This document shows positions 3,341-29,570 of a DNA stretch of 43,395 nt, in pieces; the first letter of the stretch is position 1; the number at the start of each line of letters is the position of its first letter. The notes below the pieces were generated by a model that saw nothing but the letters and a program-made list of their open reading frames with translations, ran no database searches and was not told the origin of the DNA. The position numbers and the translations under genes were made by a program. The stretch is from Bdellovibrio sp. (GTDB lineage Bacteria > UBA10199 > 2-02-FULL-44-16 > DYJF01), in contig DYJF01000010.1 of assembly GCA_020723205.1 (NCBI GenBank), positions 1 to 43,395 on the forward strand, read 5' to 3'.

Positions 3341-4468
3341 ATGAAGGAGAAGAAAGAGTTTTCAGTGCTCGACAGGCCGTCCGGTTATAATTTTCCGGAG
3401 CTTTCGAAGGCGGATGCGGCGCGCAAGCGCGAGATACTCTCCGGCACCGTTGAGTCCGTCGATCTCGAGAAGATTAAGGACGTTGGCGATCTTGTGAACG
3501 CATACGGCAAGGCCTCCGTGCAGGCGAGGAACATAGGCACCTGTGCGAAGGTCTACGACAGCATGCTTTCCGATCAGGAACGCCCGACGATCATGCTGGG
3601 TCTGGCCGGTCCGCTGATAGCCGCGGGCCTTCGCAAGGTCATACGCGACATGGTAGCGCACAACCTGGTGGACGTCATCGTCTCCACGGGAGCGATACTC
3701 TATCAGGACCTCTATCAGTCGCAGAACTTCAAGCACTATACTGGCACGCCCAACGCGGACGACACGGTGCTGCGGGATCTGTATATAGACCGCATCTACG
3801 ACACCTATGTCGACGAGTCGCAGTTCTGGCGGCTCGACTGTTCCGTCGGGAGCTTTGCGGACAAGTTGCCGGCAGGAAGATATTCCAGCAGGCATTTCCT
3901 GCAGGAGCTGGGCGGCGCGATAAACGACGATCAGTCGATCCTCGCGACGGCTGCGCGGCACGGCGTTCCGGTCTTTTCGCCGGCGATAAACGATTCATCG
4001 ATCGGTATAGGGCTCACGGAGCATTATCACCGCTGTGTGAAGGAGAACCGCCGCGGCGTCACGATAGATTCCATACAGGACAACTACGAACTGACGCAGA
4101 TCGTGGTCAAGTCGAAGGCCACGGCCGCGGTATATATCGCCGGCGGTGTTCCCAAGAACTTCATCAACGACTCCGTAGTGATGGCCTATATCTTCAACAT
4201 GGACACCGGCGGGCACCGTTACGCCATCCAGCTCACGACGGACGTGCCGCACTGGGGCGGGCTCTCCGGCTCGACGCTTTCGGAGGCAACGAGTTGGGGA
4301 AAAGTCTCCAAACAGGCGACGCACTGCATGGCGTTCGTCGAACCGTCGGTCTCGCTGCCGCTCGTTGTCGGCTCCGTAATGAAGAAGTGGGCGGGCGCGA
4401 AGAGGCCGCGGCTCTCCTTCGAGTGGGATCCGCCGATACTTAAGAACCTCACTGTGTCGCCAAGGTAA
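3341..4468 (+). CDS. Deoxyhypusine synthase-like / homospermidine synthase-like protein
   Basis: TIMLGLAGPLIAAGLRKVIRDMVAHNLVDVIVSTGA near the N-terminus and LSEATSWGKV, with the family lysine, near the C-terminus. Confidence 0.85.
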   Translation: MKEKKEFSVLDRPSGYNFPELSKADAARKREILSGTVESVDLEKIKDVGDLVNAYGKASVQARNIGTCAKVYDSMLSDQERPTIMLGLAGPLIAAGLRKVIRDMVAHNLVDVIVSTGAILYQDLYQSQNFKHYTGTPNADDTVLRDLYIDRIYDTYVDESQFWRLDCSVGSFADKLPAGRYSSRHFLQELGGAINDDQSILATAARHGVPVFSPAINDSSIGIGLTEHYHRCVKENRRGVTIDSIQDNYELTQIVVKSKATAAVYIAGGVPKNFINDSVVMAYIFNMDTGGHRYAIQLTTDVPHWGGLSGSTLSEATSWGKVSKQATHCMAFVEPSVSLPLVVGSVMKKWAGAKRPRLSFEWDPPILKNLTVSPR

Positions 4469-14903: not shown

Positions 14904-14912
14904 TGTGAATAA
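14904..14912 (-). promoter_or_regulatory. DnaA box TTATTCACA
   Basis: TGTGAATAA on + strand; perfect TTATNCACA. Confidence 0.6.
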
Positions 14913-14971
14913 CCAAAAAAATGTGTAAATTCAATAGCTTGAGGTGTTTTAAGGGCTAAATTCGGAACCCG

Positions 14972-14980
14972 TTATCCACA
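14972..14980 (+). promoter_or_regulatory. DnaA box TTATCCACA, overlapping NrdR box 1
   Basis: Perfect consensus TTATCCACA. Confidence 0.65.
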
Positions 14981-14991
14981 ATATATTGTGT
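14976..14991. promoter_or_regulatory. NrdR box 1
   Basis: ccacaatatattgtgt compared with remembered consensus acaCwAtATaTwGtGt; perfect 14-bp palindrome CACAATATATTGTG at 14977-14990. Confidence 0.8.
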
Positions 14992-15001
14992 GGTGATGTG
15001 A

Positions 15002-15030
15002 TGTTTAGATACTACATATTGTGGTGTCAA
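15002..15030 (-). promoter_or_regulatory. Candidate nrdJ promoter
   Basis: Minus strand TTGACA (15025-15030), 17-bp spacer, TAAACA (15002-15007). NrdR box 2 occupies the spacer. Confidence 0.55.
15009..15024. promoter_or_regulatory. NrdR box 2
   Basis: tactacatattgtggt. Centre lies 33 bp from box 1, about three helical turns. Confidence 0.7.
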
Positions 15031-15096
15031 TCTAAAAATAAAAAAACAAAGATGGAAGGTCAAAAACTCGCTCTATTGTGTATATCTAATTGATAT

Positions 15097-15105
15097 TGTG
15101 GATAA
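15097..15105 (-). promoter_or_regulatory. DnaA box TTATCCACA
   Basis: TGTGGATAA on + strand; perfect consensus. Confidence 0.65.
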
Positions 15106-15176: not shown

Positions 15177-16358
15177 ATGGAAACGAATCCACAGGATCTC
15201 CACAATTATTCCTCCTATATCGTGCATTACGGCGAAATAGCGCTCAAGAAGGGCAACCGTACGATCTTTGAGGACATGCTCGTAAGGAATATTCGCACAA
15301 GTGTAGGCAAGAAAAGGTCTTGCGAAATTCGACGGCTGCAAGGGCGCATATACATTGAATTAGCCGAACCGTGCAATGGTAATATGATGTTGGGAGAGCT
15401 TTCGCGGGTATTTGGTGTGGCAAATATATCTGCTGCTTTGCGTGCAGAGCCATCTCTGGATGCGATCCGTAATGCTGTCCAAAATCTCATTGATAAAAAA
15501 TCATTTAGCAGCTTCGCCGTGAGGACGCGTCGTGCGCAGAAAACTTTTCCGTTGTCATCACAGAAGGTGAATGAAGAGATCGGAGCGATGGTGCAGAAGA
15601 TCTCCCAAGCTAAGGTAGATCTTGAAGACCCGGAAATGACGGTCTCCATCGAGATACTTGACAGGCATGTCTTTGTTTTCACGGATAATAAAAAAGGTTT
15701 GGGCGGTCTTCCTGTCGGCATCAGCGGCAAGGTGTTGTGCCTGATATCGGGTGGTATCGATTCCCCGGTTGCCGCTTGGCGCGCGATGAAAAGGGGTTGT
15801 CTTCCTTTTTACGTCCATTTTCACTCCGCACCCTTTACCTCGGCCGCCTCGCAGGAAAAGGTCGTTGAGATCGTGGAGCATCTTATGAAAGGCCAGCCGG
15901 GGACGCGCCTTGTAACGGTGCCGTTCGGGCCGGTTCAGCAAAAGATAGTGGTGGCTGTTCCGTCGCAGTACCGCATCATAATATACAGGCGCTTCATGGT
16001 GAGGATAGCCGAAATGATAGCCAGACAGGAGAGAGCGCAGGCGCTTGTCACCGGCGAGGCCCTTTCACAGGTCGCTTCGCAGACGCTTTCGAACCTTGCG
16101 ACCATCGAAGCGGTCTCCGGTGTGCCGATACTGCGTCCGCTGGTGGGTATGGATAAACAGGAGATCGTGGACGAGGCAAAAAGGATAGGCACATATGATG
16201 TGGCGATAATCCCGCACGACGATTGCTGCAGCTTTTTGATGCCCAGGAATCCCGTGACGCGCACTACGCCGGAAGAGGTCGAAAAGGTCGAGAAAAACCT
16301 TGATGTTGAGGGACTGGTGCAAATGGGGCTTGAAGCGAAAGAAATTCGTGATATGTAG
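15177..16358 (+). CDS. thiI: tRNA 4-thiouridine synthase ThiI, no rhodanese domain
   Basis: HYGEIALKKGNR; LISGGIDSPVAAW PP-loop; DDCCSFLMPRNPVT. Confidence 0.95.
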   Translation: METNPQDLHNYSSYIVHYGEIALKKGNRTIFEDMLVRNIRTSVGKKRSCEIRRLQGRIYIELAEPCNGNMMLGELSRVFGVANISAALRAEPSLDAIRNAVQNLIDKKSFSSFAVRTRRAQKTFPLSSQKVNEEIGAMVQKISQAKVDLEDPEMTVSIEILDRHVFVFTDNKKGLGGLPVGISGKVLCLISGGIDSPVAAWRAMKRGCLPFYVHFHSAPFTSAASQEKVVEIVEHLMKGQPGTRLVTVPFGPVQQKIVVAVPSQYRIIIYRRFMVRIAEMIARQERAQALVTGEALSQVASQTLSNLATIEAVSGVPILRPLVGMDKQEIVDEAKRIGTYDVAIIPHDDCCSFLMPRNPVTRTTPEEVEKVEKNLDVEGLVQMGLEAKEIRDM

Positions 16359-21780: not shown

Positions 21781-24700
21781 TCAACGGATTTTAAACGCCG
21801 TCGCCATGAACAGGTTCGGTATCCTGAACGACTGAAGAAGGACGGGCGGCGTCATTCCGGCGGCCCTGTAGAAAGACGCGATCCCTTGCGGTGTCATCGT
21901 GATCTCTTCACCAGGTCTTAGTCGCGCCATCTTCGCTATGGCGTTGACGAGAGACTGCCTTTGCTCCTGCGAGAGGTTGTTCCAGCCGGCGATGTTCGCC
22001 GCAAGTTTGCTCTTTATCTCCTGATACGCCAGCTCGTTCGCCGGGTCCAAGGCCTCGCCGGACGGCAAGAGCGCCGTTACGTTCACAGGGCCGGCACTCA
22101 CGGAGGCCGGGGTTTCGTCATCCATGAGCCCGCTGACCTCCACGCTTCCCGAGGAGGCGGCGGTGGCCGGCTTTGCAAAATGGAAACGGAACACCTGCTC
22201 GACATCGCGCTCGAGTTCGATCAGCTTTGGCACCTTCGTTTCGGCGGTTTCGCCCTCGTTCACGTTGAACTTTTCGAATAGGGCCAGCAGCTGTCTGTAT
22301 GGAACGGCGTTGTGGTTGAATCTCCCCATAATGGAGGAGATCATGTAGCCCAACGCCAAAAGGCGCGGCTCCTTGAATATTTCGTACGTGAGGCGCGCGT
22401 AGGGATCGGATGGCGAATCATAGACGGTTATCGTTCCAAGATCGAGCGTGACCGTCACGAAACGGTTTTCCTTGAGGGAGAAGTGCGTGAAGGGAACGGT
22501 CTCTCTGCCGCCGCTTTTCTGGAGACCGAATATGCGCGCTGCTTCCTCGCGCGTGACAAGAAGACCGAAACGCGGCTGTCCGGTCGAACGCTCGGTGAGC
22601 CGCAGCGTGGTAAGTTCGGGATGTTCCAAGCGGCGAAGTATGGCAGCCGCATACATCTGATGTTTCGCGAAATCGTAGACGAGCCGGTCTCCTTCGTAGA
22701 GGATGTCGCCGAACCGAAGCTCGATCGTATATTCCATCAGAAGTTGCATGCCGATCTTCGTGATGTCGGTCATTTCGATGCCTTCGTCGGAACCCTCCAT
22801 GTCGTATTGTTCCTCGAGCATATCGGATACCGCCGACAGCAAAAGTTTCACGAGAAGTTCGCCGTTGTGCCCCCGCTTGATTATGGTCCAGAGCATGCCC
22901 ATCTCACGGGGGAGAGACGCCCTGTTCGCCTTCCACCATTCGAGCAGCGGCGTGCTAAGATACGGTTCCAGCGCGTTGTGAAACTCCTTTAAGCTCTGTT
23001 CGATGAGCTGCTGGCCGGCAGGATTGTTCAGGGAACGGACGCTCGCGGCGACGTTGTCCGCAGTCTTCGTGACGAGAGTTTGCATCTCGCTTTCGGAAAG
23101 ACGCACCTCGATGGGCCGTTGCCTTTTGACGAACCACTGGTTTTTGGCGAACGGTCTGATGGATTCGATTTCGTCCTTATTGGCCAGCGCGAAGCGCCTC
23201 GTGAAAAGACGGGCGTCGGCCGCGGACGCGAACCTCTCGTCCATGATGTCCGTCAGGTATGCCTGCCAGACGGAGCGCGCCTCGCCGTTCCATTGTGTGG
23301 CCTCGTAAAGCTTCAACATGAGATCGGCCTCAAGCCCCTTCTCGGCGAAGAGAAGCCCGATTTTGCGGGCCAGATCTGTGGACACGGAGTTCTCCGCGAT
23401 CCTCACTCCGCGGCTGTCCGCCGCGATCTTCACCGGCGTGCCGAAGATATCTTTTATTTCGATCGCCTGTTTTCGCCCCGAAGAGAGCCACGACGTGACC
23501 GCCGCCGCTTGCACCCCGTCTATCAGATAGGAGCTTTCCCCGACGCCCAGTACGCGCACGTTCGTCATCTCTTCGAGCAGCCGGTTCGCCTTGTTCTTGG
23601 GGATCGAGGCGAAACCGGAGACATTGAAGAAGATCACCGATCGCTCGTCGAACGAAAAACTGGAGTCGGCGGTGGAGGGCGTGTCGGGCACTTCTACGGA
23701 AGGCGATATCGGTATCGCCGCTTCCTCGTCGAATAGCGTCTTTTCGAGCGCGACCAGCGCCCCGCCCAACTTGGCGATCTGATCGTACGCCTGTTCGCCG
23801 GCAAGACGGTCCTCGGGAAGTCCTTTTACAAGCCGCTTTCTCGCCTTGGAAAGAGACGCCTTCATGTCGTCGGAGATGTTTGGTATGTCGCGCGAGAGCT
23901 CAAGCTCCTTTTGAAGCTTGGCTGCGTCAATGGATTCAAGCGCCTGTCGGACACGGTCGAGCTTCTCTTTGAGTTGGTCCGCCCTCGAGCGGTATGACAG
24001 ATACTGCGCCCAGTGCTGTTCATGTGCGGAGATCGTGGCGGCGTATCCGGCCGTGATGCCCTCTTCGAATATCTTTATCTCGCCCAGCAGCGGCTCGATC
24101 CGTCCGCTTATATTCGACGCCTGTTCGGAGAGTTCATGTGCCTGCGCCAAGGCGTTGTTTACGTCGTCAACGGCCGTCTGTGCCTCGCGGTCGGCGGCGA
24201 TACGCGCCTCCTCTTCGTTGAGCTCTTCGAGTCGGACGCGGAGCAGCATTCCCTGTCCATTAAGGTTGTTTTTTGCCTGCGCGATGCGTGTTTCTGCCTC
24301 ATGGAATATATCCATCACATCGTCGTCGTCGTGAAGCTCGCTTGCCAGATTCGCCGCGGTCGTCCATGCCTTGAGTATCGGGCCGTTGAGCTCCTCTTCA
24401 AGGTTGGTCACGAGGCGAAGACCCGTCTCGATGTTTTCAAGCGACCGCGCGATATCGTCCCGTCCCATGTCGTCGGCATCGTAGGTCCCAAGATAGATAT
24501 CGAGAGAGGAGAACACTCTGTCGCGGAACTTTCTTACCGGCACCTCTGCGAGGATGAGCTGGTTCTGGTTGTCCCTGACCCTCCGCCTCGCCTCCTGCTT
24601 CTTGACTGCCAGCGTGTCGGAGGCCTCTTGGAACCTTTCCAGAAGATGCTCTTCCACGCTTCCATGCGGGGCGGGAGCGCCAAGCGCTTCGGAGAGAAGC

Positions 24701-27700
24701 CGTATCCTGTGATCGAAATCCCTGATGTTCTCCAGCGACGGGTGGTACTGGGTGGAGACGCCCTCTCTGACAGGCGCCGCGTCCAGATCCATGCCGACGG
24801 CCGCGAACACTTTTCCCAGAAAATCTGACTCGCTGACGTTCTTGAACATGTTCCATGGATCGCTTTTGATCTGTTCGGCCTTGGCGTCTATCGTCCGGAA
24901 CATTGCCTCGCGCCGGCGCATCATGCCAGCGTGGAGGTCGTGCAGGTAGTCGCGTATCAGCATGTGATAGAAGGCGACGACCTCCGCCTTTACAGTGGGA
25001 TACGGATCGAAGCGGTCGCCGATCTCTGCCACGACCATGGCCTCGACGTCAACCGGCTGCGGCGTTGTCAGGCGCAGCGTCAGATATCTGTTGATCAGAA
25101 GCGCAGCGGACGCAGCGGAGACGAGCGGGGCTTCGAAATTCGACCGAAGGTGTTTTTCCACGTCTTCCTGCCTGCTCATCTGGTCGATCAGGTTCCTTTC
25201 GCCGTCAAGCTCGTAGCCCCATGCGAACAGCGCCCTGCTGTTTTCCTCCATGACGGAATCGTCTATGCCCACTCTTGACAGGGCGGGCTCTATAGTTTCG
25301 AAGAGGGTCTTTTCGTCCTTGATGAGATTGTAGGCGACAAGGAGCTTTTCCGGCCGGAGTTCCAGAAGCATCCCGTGTTCTCTGCCCCATGTGGACAGGA
25401 AGGCGTAAAACCGTTCGGGAAAGATGCCGTTTTCCGGAAGGGGGTAGAAATTCACGGCGATCTCTGCGATGGTCTTTTCCCTCTTCGCGTTGAACTGCCC
25501 GATCGCGGAGACGACGCCGCGCCTGATGATGCTCTTCCTCAACGGAACGTCGGGATGCTCCGCAATCTGCCTGTCCACGACCTCGGCGAGCAGGCGCTCG
25601 TTCAGCTCGATCTTGGCCCCTATCTCGTCCGCGCCGGGGAAGTTTTCGAGATAATCGCGGAACGCCCATTCGATCGCTTTCGCCTCCGCCGAGGTGTCCT
25701 CCGGGGAGATGGGATGGCGCGGCGCGACCTCCGTCCTTATGTTTATTTGCCTGAAGAAATCGGTTATGCGTTTTGTCGCTTCTTCTCTCTCGGTTTCGCT
25801 GCCGTAGACGGAGGCGATGGCGCCCTTGAGCTTTTCCGGATCGAACGTGTAGTGCGGGTGGCGGACCGCCTTGAAATAGCCCTCGATGACCTCCGAATCG
25901 AAGTACGCGATCTCATCCGTGTGTCCCCCCGCCGCATAGAATTCGCCCAGGCGCTCGCGCCACGACTGTGTAGCGTCGTACACGTAGTAGGCGCGCATCG
26001 AAGCGCCCTCGGAGGATCTTAACTTGGCGGCCCTATAGAGAGCGGGCTCGATGATGTCGCGGCTGCCGCCGGCGGCCGCTCGGTTCATCTCCGCGAGCTC
26101 TGCCGCGGCCCACTCGAGGAGGTCGTCCGCGATGCCGACATGAAATTCGCGAGCAAGCGCGGCGATCTTTTGGGCGTTCTCGAGCTCGGCAGGTTTCATT
26201 ATGCCGCCCGCAACGTGCCAGCTTGCGAGAAGACGGAGCGCAAAGACCGCCTGCACATTCTCGGGCGGCCATGACAGTTCTTTCGCCCTTGTGATGATGT
26301 CGTCGGTGAAGACCGATACGCGGCCCTCGACTATCGGGGATATCTGGATACCGCCGATATGCGGAACTATCTCGAAGTTTATGGGCAGGTCGCCGACCTT
26401 AGTTGAGCCGCGAAGGCGGGTAGTGAAGAGCATCTGCCTGAAGAAGCGGTCGAGGTCGCGGTAGAATGATTTCACCTCCGCCAGATATTCGAGGGTCCTC
26501 GTCGCCGGATCGCCGGCGGGGTTCATTATCCTGCCCTTGTGGGCGGCGTGCAGTCCCATGATCGTTTCGCATCTCTCCTTCAGGCGCAGGACGTTCTGGG
26601 GATCGAACTCGAGAGAGGCCGCGAATACGTCGAACGCGGCAAGACGTTTTTCTATTATCTCCAGCATGCGGTCGTAGGAGCCGCTCGCGATGCTGGAGAA
26701 GGGCCAGCGCTGGACGCTGAAGCGCGCGGTCTCCCCGAAGGAGAGATATTCCACGAGCTCGCTTTCGGGCACGACCCGGACCGTGTAACGCGTGCTGTAT
26801 CCCGGACCGGGAGAGGTGAGCGGCCTGTCGGCCATGTCCCTCGCGGGGGCCGTGTCCTTCAGCACCGGCAGCAGGCGCAGGAACACGAGGAAGTCGAAGA
26901 TCTGGCGCCTGTGAAGCGCGTCGCCGTCCGCCTGCGCGGAAATGCGTTCGGCGTAACGGTCGAGGGTCTCCCATCTCGGGCGTTCAACCTCCTGCCGCAC
27001 GTGGTGGCCCACCGTGCCTTCGGGGATGTCGCCGACGAGACCGCTCGTTTTGGCGGCCATTGCGAACGTTGCGTAGCTGAAGGTATCGAAGTTCGTCTCC
27101 TCCATGAATCTGGGGACGCGAACCACAATCTCTCTTCCCACCTGCGCGTTCTCAAGCATCTTTTCGACCGGCGGGTATATGGAGGCGAGATAGTCCCAGA
27201 TATCCACTCGCGTTCCGTGCAGGGACGCATGTTTGTCGAGCCACCTGAAGACCGCGACCACCTGTTCGGCGTCGCGCGGCTCCACGAACTCCCCTTCACC
27301 CCTCTTGCTCCCCCACAGTTTTGCGGAGCCGAACCTTATACCGGTTGTCTCCAGAAAATCCTCAACCAGCCGCCTTCTTTCTTCGCGCGTTACGTTTGCG
27401 CCGAGCCCGAACGCGTCCATGTTCTTTTCCAAGAATTCGCGGAGAGTGTCGCCTTCCTGTCTCGGCACATATCGCACCTGCATTTCGGAAGGGGCGGCCG
27501 CAGAGAAGAGCGACGCCGCCGACATGACACGTTCCAACGCCATCGTATGACGTTCGGGGAGGGGCAAAAAGTGTGAGCCGTCCGCGATTAAATCCTTAAG
27601 ATGATTGATTATCGCCAGATCCTCATCCTGCGGATGCTGTCTTGAATATTCCTCGATGGCCGTGATCGCCCCTTGCGGGTTCAGGAGAAAAGAATAGACC

Positions 27701-27714
27701 GGTGGTGTGCCCAT
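21781..27714 (-). CDS. 1977-aa protein of unknown function with central coiled coil
   Basis: Single uninterrupted ORF; no recognisable signal peptide, TM segment or known domain; coiled-coil-like stretch ELNEEEARIAADREAQTAVDDVNNALAQAHELSEQ. Confidence 0.9.
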   Translation of the reverse strand: MGTPPVYSFLLNPQGAITAIEEYSRQHPQDEDLAIINHLKDLIADGSHFLPLPERHTMALERVMSAASLFSAAAPSEMQVRYVPRQEGDTLREFLEKNMDAFGLGANVTREERRRLVEDFLETTGIRFGSAKLWGSKRGEGEFVEPRDAEQVVAVFRWLDKHASLHGTRVDIWDYLASIYPPVEKMLENAQVGREIVVRVPRFMEETNFDTFSYATFAMAAKTSGLVGDIPEGTVGHHVRQEVERPRWETLDRYAERISAQADGDALHRRQIFDFLVFLRLLPVLKDTAPARDMADRPLTSPGPGYSTRYTVRVVPESELVEYLSFGETARFSVQRWPFSSIASGSYDRMLEIIEKRLAAFDVFAASLEFDPQNVLRLKERCETIMGLHAAHKGRIMNPAGDPATRTLEYLAEVKSFYRDLDRFFRQMLFTTRLRGSTKVGDLPINFEIVPHIGGIQISPIVEGRVSVFTDDIITRAKELSWPPENVQAVFALRLLASWHVAGGIMKPAELENAQKIAALAREFHVGIADDLLEWAAAELAEMNRAAAGGSRDIIEPALYRAAKLRSSEGASMRAYYVYDATQSWRERLGEFYAAGGHTDEIAYFDSEVIEGYFKAVRHPHYTFDPEKLKGAIASVYGSETEREEATKRITDFFRQINIRTEVAPRHPISPEDTSAEAKAIEWAFRDYLENFPGADEIGAKIELNERLLAEVVDRQIAEHPDVPLRKSIIRRGVVSAIGQFNAKREKTIAEIAVNFYPLPENGIFPERFYAFLSTWGREHGMLLELRPEKLLVAYNLIKDEKTLFETIEPALSRVGIDDSVMEENSRALFAWGYELDGERNLIDQMSRQEDVEKHLRSNFEAPLVSAASAALLINRYLTLRLTTPQPVDVEAMVVAEIGDRFDPYPTVKAEVVAFYHMLIRDYLHDLHAGMMRRREAMFRTIDAKAEQIKSDPWNMFKNVSESDFLGKVFAAVGMDLDAAPVREGVSTQYHPSLENIRDFDHRIRLLSEALGAPAPHGSVEEHLLERFQEASDTLAVKKQEARRRVRDNQNQLILAEVPVRKFRDRVFSSLDIYLGTYDADDMGRDDIARSLENIETGLRLVTNLEEELNGPILKAWTTAANLASELHDDDDVMDIFHEAETRIAQAKNNLNGQGMLLRVRLEELNEEEARIAADREAQTAVDDVNNALAQAHELSEQASNISGRIEPLLGEIKIFEEGITAGYAATISAHEQHWAQYLSYRSRADQLKEKLDRVRQALESIDAAKLQKELELSRDIPNISDDMKASLSKARKRLVKGLPEDRLAGEQAYDQIAKLGGALVALEKTLFDEEAAIPISPSVEVPDTPSTADSSFSFDERSVIFFNVSGFASIPKNKANRLLEEMTNVRVLGVGESSYLIDGVQAAAVTSWLSSGRKQAIEIKDIFGTPVKIAADSRGVRIAENSVSTDLARKIGLLFAEKGLEADLMLKLYEATQWNGEARSVWQAYLTDIMDERFASAADARLFTRRFALANKDEIESIRPFAKNQWFVKRQRPIEVRLSESEMQTLVTKTADNVAASVRSLNNPAGQQLIEQSLKEFHNALEPYLSTPLLEWWKANRASLPREMGMLWTIIKRGHNGELLVKLLLSAVSDMLEEQYDMEGSDEGIEMTDITKIGMQLLMEYTIELRFGDILYEGDRLVYDFAKHQMYAAAILRRLEHPELTTLRLTERSTGQPRFGLLVTREEAARIFGLQKSGGRETVPFTHFSLKENRFVTVTLDLGTITVYDSPSDPYARLTYEIFKEPRLLALGYMISSIMGRFNHNAVPYRQLLALFEKFNVNEGETAETKVPKLIELERDVEQVFRFHFAKPATAASSGSVEVSGLMDDETPASVSAGPVNVTALLPSGEALDPANELAYQEIKSKLAANIAGWNNLSQEQRQSLVNAIAKMARLRPGEEITMTPQGIASFYRAAGMTPPVLLQSFRIPNLFMATAFKIR

Positions 27715-27812: not shown

Positions 27813-29570
27813 CTAATTGATCATGCTCTTGGCGCCTACGAGGAAAATATTGGTAACCGGCGTTATGCGGACGGCAGGCAGCATGGTGAAGGGTCGTGCC
27901 GCTGCTGCCACATCGGTGGCCGGATGCGAGACGGCAGGTGCGACCGGCAGAGGCGGCAGCTCTTCGTTTGTCCCCAAAAGGGCGCTTATTTTCGCTCCCT
28001 TCGCTTGAGGGATGGGAGGCAGGTCGGAGCCGGCCGGAGGTGTTCCGGGGTTTCCAACGGAACCTCTGCCGGCTGGAGAAGAGCCGCCCGCGGGTTTTTT
28101 CTCCACGGCTACGGTCCTCATGTTCCAGATGCGCTGTTCATTTTTAGCCCAGTAGTACTCGACGTGTTTCTCTTCCGAATCTATCGCCTCGTTTATCAGC
28201 TCCAGCGCCCTGTCGAACCAGTTCTCGAAGGGGGTCGTCGTGATGACCGCCGGCAGGATGCTCTTCATGAAGTTAAGTATGCCGTTCGTGCCCAGAACGT
28301 CTATGTAATGCTCCACTATGATCTTGATCGTTTCTCTCTTATTATAGTCCTCCATTGAGTCCATGAAGGCGGCATCGCGTGTGAAACGCGTATAGAGTTC
28401 AAAGTCCCGAAGCACCTGCTCCACGTAAGCTTTGACGTCGTTGTCTCCTTGAGAGACGCGCGCGCGGTGGGTCAGGATGCGCACGACCTCCGTCAACTGT
28501 CCTTCTGCCTTCCGAAGATCACTGCTGCCTGAGGCCAGTGCCGTCAGATTCTGAAAGAACGTTCTCGGTTCCTTTGCGTAGACCGCGGCCATGAACTTTT
28601 CGCTGTCGGCCATCGCGGTCTCGAGCAGAGTGGAGTTCAAAAGTATGGGCCTGTCTCCCTCGCCTAACGCCAACTCCCCCGTCCTCATATTCACCTGAAG
28701 GTGGTTCCAGCTCCTCATGGCGATGCCCGACTCTTTGAGCGCATAGACCATGAACTCGAGGTTTCTCAAGGCGGCGGCCGCAATATTGAGCGACAACGAC
28801 TGGTTCAGAACGCCCTGTCTTAAGGCCGTTCCTTCGAATGCCGGAGCGATGACAAAAAGCGGCATCCAAGCGTCCTTGGGGAGATGCCTTGCGGCGTATC
28901 CCTTGAAGACGGGCGTATTATCGGGGGCGTCCTGCGTGTAAGGGTTCAGGATGCGGATGTTCCTCGCGAGTATGGCCTCCGACCTGTAAAAACCGATCTC
29001 TTCAAGGAAAGAGCGCAGGAGGAGGTGCGTATCTTCGCCGGAGTCCGACGTCAGAATGCCGGTGCCCAAGAACTCCGCCGGAATGAACATGGCGGTGTCG
29101 GGTTCGTCCGCGCCGACCCGCATCTGCACGTCATTTGGTTCGTCGCTAATATCCTTCGACATGGTCCAGTCGAAGCCGTTGTACTCGATCGTCGTGAAAC
29201 CGTTCTCGGTGCCGGTCATAAGCGCCAGCTCCATATCGATATCCACACCGTGTTTCGAAACGTGCATTGTGCGCATGGCCGCAACCGGCATGCCGCGGAT
29301 GTCGGACGCGATGAAAGCGCGCCTCTCCGTGACAGGTTCGTAGTTGTGCCAAGGGTGCATGAAGAGCCGCGCCAGACCCAAGCGGATCGTGATGTTGGGG
29401 CCTTTCAGGAGATCAAAGAGACTGGGGGATTGCCTCGGATCTACGGGCTCATTGCGGGCAAGCTTTCCTCCAAGGATCTCCAGGGTCAGGTCCTGATCAG
29501 GGAGATCGTGGTCGAAGAAAAGCGAACGAACATGCTCTAAAACGTGGCGGACCGAATTATCGCTTCCCAT
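27813..29570 (-). CDS. 585-aa protein of unknown function, probable partner of the 1977-aa protein
   Basis: Long ORF, same strand, 98 bp upstream of the giant gene. Pro/Gly-rich linker near the C-terminus. Confidence 0.88.
   Translation of the reverse strand: MGSDNSVRHVLEHVRSLFFDHDLPDQDLTLEILGGKLARNEPVDPRQSPSLFDLLKGPNITIRLGLARLFMHPWHNYEPVTERRAFIASDIRGMPVAAMRTMHVSKHGVDIDMELALMTGTENGFTTIEYNGFDWTMSKDISDEPNDVQMRVGADEPDTAMFIPAEFLGTGILTSDSGEDTHLLLRSFLEEIGFYRSEAILARNIRILNPYTQDAPDNTPVFKGYAARHLPKDAWMPLFVIAPAFEGTALRQGVLNQSLSLNIAAAALRNLEFMVYALKESGIAMRSWNHLQVNMRTGELALGEGDRPILLNSTLLETAMADSEKFMAAVYAKEPRTFFQNLTALASGSSDLRKAEGQLTEVVRILTHRARVSQGDNDVKAYVEQVLRDFELYTRFTRDAAFMDSMEDYNKRETIKIIVEHYIDVLGTNGILNFMKSILPAVITTTPFENWFDRALELINEAIDSEEKHVEYYWAKNEQRIWNMRTVAVEKKPAGGSSPAGRGSVGNPGTPPAGSDLPPIPQAKGAKISALLGTNEELPPLPVAPAVSHPATDVAAAARPFTMLPAVRITPVTNIFLVGAKSMIN

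Follow-up and report, generated by a model that had tools for sequence, protein, structure and literature searches.

In Escherichia coli, NrdR, which conveys the dNTP level, and DnaA, which conveys replication timing, act on the same ribonucleotide reductase (RNR) promoters from separate sites. Joint control of an RNR by these two proteins is thus known or strongly indicated in this bacterium. The nrdAB genes are repressed by DnaA-ATP at high levels, and DnaA-ADP or low DnaA-ATP can activate them (PMC8203912). At the nrdDG promoter, DnaA binding has been detected by ChIP-seq (PMC11317965).

The window analysed here, that is, the whole stretch of 43,395 nucleotides, carries the class II RNR gene nrdJ and, divergent from it, thiI (Table 1). 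Neither NrdD nor NrdB was found in 46 genomes of the class, several of which, the host genome included, are incomplete drafts; since no class genome has either protein, the organism, like the class as a whole, seems to have no RNR other than nrdJ. Elsewhere in the window, positions 3341-4468 encode a member of the deoxyhypusine synthase family (PF01916, E 2.7e-87), which is most familiar from archaea and eukaryotes, and a 1977-aa ORF on the minus strand (21781-27714) as well as the next frame (27813-29570, 585 aa) gave no Pfam match.

Table 1. Features of the nrdJ-thiI region, with positions in the window.
Feature	Positions	Strand	Basis and remarks
nrdJ, class II (B12-dependent) ribonucleotide reductase, 1123 aa	11511..14882	-	NCBIfam NF005122 and TIGR02504 above cut-off; Pfam PF02867, PF08471
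DnaA box D, TTATTCACA, near-copy, in leader	14904..14912	-	orientation opposite that of box A; 63 bp beyond box 1
DnaA box A, TTATCCACA	14972..14980	+	exact match; shares 14976-14980 (5 bp) with NrdR box 1
NrdR box 1, ACACAATATATTGTGG, just past predicted start	14976..14991	-	score 25/26; conserved in class
Predicted -10 element TAAACA, weak	15002..15007	-	sequence and aligned relatives
NrdR box 2, CCACAATATGTAGTAT, fills promoter spacer	15009..15024	-	score 23/26; conserved in class
-35 element TTGACA	15025..15030	-	sequence; abuts NrdR box 2
DnaA box U, exact TTATCCACA, upstream of promoter	15097..15105	-	72 bp before thiI
thiI (tRNA 4-thiouridylation), divergent neighbour	15177..16358	+	TIGR00342 above cut-off

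On the minus strand the control region of nrdJ reads TTGACA-[CCACAATATGTAGTAT]-C-TAAACA-...-[ACACAATATATTGTGG]-ATAAC, with a gap of 17 bp between TTGACA and TAAACA and a linker of 17 bp between the two NrdR boxes, which lie 33 bp apart from centre to centre; all of these elements were located exactly where the original prediction had placed them. The transcription start is predicted near 14995, and in the aligned relatives TAnnAT occurs one base beyond the position of TAAACA. Based on a simple weighted consensus built for this analysis, with a maximum of 26 per box, the two boxes together reach 48/52, and no other pair in the window is credible. The reading of these palindromes as an NrdR-like pair is borne out by this score, far above the maximum of 38 reached by the best pair across 100 first-order Markov windows, and by the retention of the pair in the class. 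The strict pattern composed of TTGAC, box 2, 15-17 bp and box 1 has one occurrence in the host genome.

The pair was found in all 41 nrdJ upstream regions of the class (one genome per species) at 30-33 bp from centre to centre, the spacing being 32 bp in 22 promoters, 33 bp in nine, 31 bp in nine and 30 bp in one; as the best pair within 30-34 bp was taken in each promoter, the weakest ones may be due to chance. TTGAC adjoins box 2 in 31 of the 41 promoters. In the host's order the spacing is 33 bp in the seven readable promoters (7/7), that is, a 17-bp linker is the norm. Published NrdR linkers are mostly of 15-16 bp, and a reporter was repressed in vivo with linkers of 15-17 bp (PMC12051234); a linker of 17 bp is therefore acceptable, though uncommon.

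The original prediction also placed a DnaA box over the outer edge of NrdR box 1, and box A is indeed an exact match with five shared base pairs; boxes D and U, which flank it, had not been mentioned. The host's draft genome of 1.746 Mb contains 14 copies of TTATCCACA, and two exact copies are found in the 294-bp nrdJ-thiI gap, compared with about 0.0024 expected at the genome rate. Box U has no counterpart at the same position in relatives, and a similar box in the orientation of box D is present at +68 to +80 in five relatives. Two further arrangements were observed beside these boxes. On the minus strand, TTATCCACAATATC (15070-15105) looks like one half, the outer, of a third NrdR box joined to a DnaA box; a good second half is missing, and the position is not conserved in relatives. 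Just ahead of the nrdJ ribosome-binding site, TTCACAGGTCTGTGAA (14905-14920) forms an inverted repeat with 7-bp arms that takes in part of the leader DnaA box.

The outer edge of NrdR box 1 itself gives CCACA, five of the nine letters of a DnaA box, so that the overlap in the host genome alone is weak evidence and the comparative data carry the case. If NrdR acted alone and the DnaA box were a by-product of an AT-rich flank beside the TTGTGG end of the NrdR box, this contribution of the box edge would be expected, and so would the fact that most other families of the class do without the overlap; this explanation is nevertheless improbable, as judged from the distribution of the motif. ATAA directly follows box 1, creating a TTATNCACA box that shares 5 bp with it, in 14 of the 41 class promoters, versus 0, 0 and 2 at the other three NrdR box edges of the same promoters. 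Furthermore, among nrdJ promoters outside the class, none of the 25 that have an NrdR pair shows ATAA after box 1. An extended NrdR box as the source of ATAA was likewise ruled out by the asymmetry in favour of one edge. Among 339 non-class genomes the strict pattern gave one match, without ATAA.

The overlap spans seven families; it reads mostly TTATCCACA in the host's order and in family f5, and TTATACACA in families f13, f18 and f9. Eight of the nine genomes of the host's order carry the overlap, which in one of them (G006) was seen with the strict pattern only, and the bases differ in the ninth (G008). Of the 41 promoters, 27 lack it, including those of families f12, f14, f15 and f17, with f15 grouping nearby on the nrdJ tree. 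A single clade for the overlap was rejected on this tree (AU p 6e-10, about seven changes), in a test in which the group was defined by the trait and gains are not distinguishable from losses.

Exact copies of TTATCCACA upstream of nrdJ amounted to 24 in 42 genomes versus 0.16 expected from each genome's rate. As genome rates ignore intergenic composition, these promoters were also scanned with permuted motifs, and 15 exact DnaA boxes were found outside the NrdR boxes, where the permuted motifs averaged 0.115 and never exceeded 2 (400 permutations); related genomes are not independent in these counts, which take one genome per species, with widely different flanks. This excess away from the NrdR boxes argues further against a by-product of the box edge. 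Consensus DnaA boxes are thus above chance and conserved in orthologous nrdJ promoters, and the conservation anticipated for the NrdR boxes extends in the class to the DnaA overlap. Exact DnaA boxes were also seen near box 1 at +19, +36 and +7 in the nrdJ upstream regions L101, L105 and L095 (genomes G045, G025 and G016, respectively); they differ from box A in register or orientation, suggesting that other families gained or moved DnaA sites.

In relatives, DnaA boxes of the same orientation peak at -5, +7 and +17/18 from the end of box 1, in steps of 12 and 11 bp; that is, the overlapping box is the first of a phased tandem array, a feature absent from the original prediction. Double boxes 2-3 bp apart, equivalent to steps of 11-12 bp, are those preferred by E. 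coli DnaA (PMC11317965). In six of the 13 relatives with box A, a partner box at +6/+7 scores 6/8 or better, and shuffled sequences yield about 2% each. In the host genome the second and third tandem boxes are absent, the best partner of box A reaching 4/8 at +6. These missing partners are the main weakness for the window itself and are in line with the action of NrdR alone; in E. coli, lone DnaA boxes are mostly unbound in vivo.

The gene encoding NrdR, on whose presence the proposal had been made to depend, was found in the host genome, downstream of glyA at the end of contig C56, which truncates it to the N-terminal 46 residues with the CPYC motif. The gene occurs in 42 of the 46 class genomes, 40 of them over the curated cut-off and full-length. 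DnaA is also present in the host, with the motif GGKDHTTVMHA, and TTATCCACA is located directly upstream of the dnaA gene in the host genome and in many relatives. In five genomes (G003, G017, G019, G024 and G034) nrdJ and dnaA reside on one contig, 60-215 kb apart. Such proximity, together with the titration by origin-near boxes reported in E. coli (PMC12371093), would fit boxes that serve to titrate or inactivate DnaA close to the origin, in the manner of datA or DARS, and play no part in transcribing nrdJ. This possibility is very unlikely, considering that the boxes stay in register, to the base pair, with NrdR box 1, something titration would not require, and that just 1-3 exact copies are present per promoter. 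The hypothesis that the region is oriC itself was rejected, as nrdJ lies 60-215 kb from dnaA wherever a contig is common to both.

Other candidates for the target of these boxes were considered as well. DnaA boxes appear to track nrdJ, and thiI is unlikely to belong to the switch: no thiI was found flanking the box-A loci of families f2, f13, f18 and f9, and the thiI-neighbour loci L067, L072, L074, L075 and L084 have no exact TTATCCACA, so thiI was rejected as the target. In the nrdJ leader, no Rfam match to a cobalamin riboswitch or other known RNA was obtained with E values up to 1, and its predicted fold is not unusual (z -1.16).

Leaving aside the sign of the DnaA effect, we consider it likely, on the grounds of these sequence comparisons, that NrdR and DnaA both act at the nrdJ promoter. 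Joint input of the two regulators on a B12-dependent RNR, as originally proposed, is well supported by comparative genomics; binding itself and the sign of the DnaA effect are what we infer. The proposed composite operator sits on what is apparently the sole RNR gene. NrdR on both boxes would cover the promoter spacer and the start region, as established for NrdR elsewhere, and DnaA would bind the 9-mer that merges with box 1 at its outer edge; because of this fusion, binding of NrdR to box 1 and binding of DnaA should be mutually exclusive. DnaA-ATP would most likely act as a second repressor or roadblock, since the site is downstream of the predicted start and the array runs into the leader in relatives, and repression would be lifted after initiation, upon hydrolysis of DnaA-ATP; a repressing effect has been reported for E. 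coli nrdAB at high DnaA-ATP (PMC8203912). Of this repressing role we are about half convinced.

The main alternative for the sign of the DnaA effect is that DnaA acts as an activator or anti-repressor, which takes the edge of box 1 and evicts the NrdR tetramer, turning nrdJ on around initiation. The fact that the five base pairs shared with box 1 fall in its outer half-site and the above-mentioned activation of E. coli nrdAB are consistent with this role, which is nonetheless regarded as rather unlikely: the site and the array of the relatives lie downstream of the predicted start, where a bound protein is more likely to block transcription, and the activating boxes of E. coli are upstream of the promoter region (-162/-150).

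With DnaA-ATP as the repressor, nrdJ would respond to the replication cycle as well as to the dNTP pool. Considering that the arrangement recurs in many distant relatives, it probably represents a real tie between the start of replication and the supply of DNA building blocks. The fuller proposal, in which the replication initiator and the repressor that senses dNTPs contend for shared bases at the sole RNR gene, forming a direct two-input switch that was kept or has arisen in more than one lineage of this uncultured class, has in our judgement an even chance of being correct. If true, replication initiation and dNTP supply would be joined by one direct switch of this kind, and DnaA control would extend to a class II, B12-dependent RNR. 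As the sites share bases, a single short piece of DNA and the two proteins suffice to test the interplay between NrdR and DnaA, and altering four bases should separate the two inputs.

Neither NrdR and DnaA sites with shared bases nor DnaA control of a class II RNR was found in the literature searched, outside of which lie most subscription papers, among them the original NrdR-box comparative study, and an earlier notice is possible. As in the NrdR operators of E. coli nrdAB, nrdDG and nrdHIEF, and those of Streptomyces and Listeria, the nrdJ locus displays paired 16-bp palindromes that overlap the promoter about three helical turns apart, along with an nrdR gene in the genome; it departs from them in the 17-bp linker (15-16 bp being usual) and in the DnaA box borne by box 1. 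Like E. coli nrdAB, it combines the sites of both regulators on one RNR promoter, and the DnaA double box of nrdAB has the same 12-bp step as that of the nrdJ relatives. However, nrdAB encodes a class Ia RNR, and the DnaA boxes of nrdA (-162/-150) are upstream of its NrdR boxes (-93 and -62), with no shared bases. In E. coli nrdDG, encoding a class III RNR, the DnaA boxes are downstream of the NrdR pair and oriented as box A, a similarity with the nrdJ locus; there, the NrdR boxes of nrdD are at -208 and -177 and the DnaA boxes at -112 and -35, so that the first DnaA box is separated from the pair by about 50 bp, without shared bases. Given that nrdAB and nrdDG combine both kinds of sites without overlap, the arrangement at nrdJ can be regarded as a variant of a known co-regulation in which the two sites overlap.
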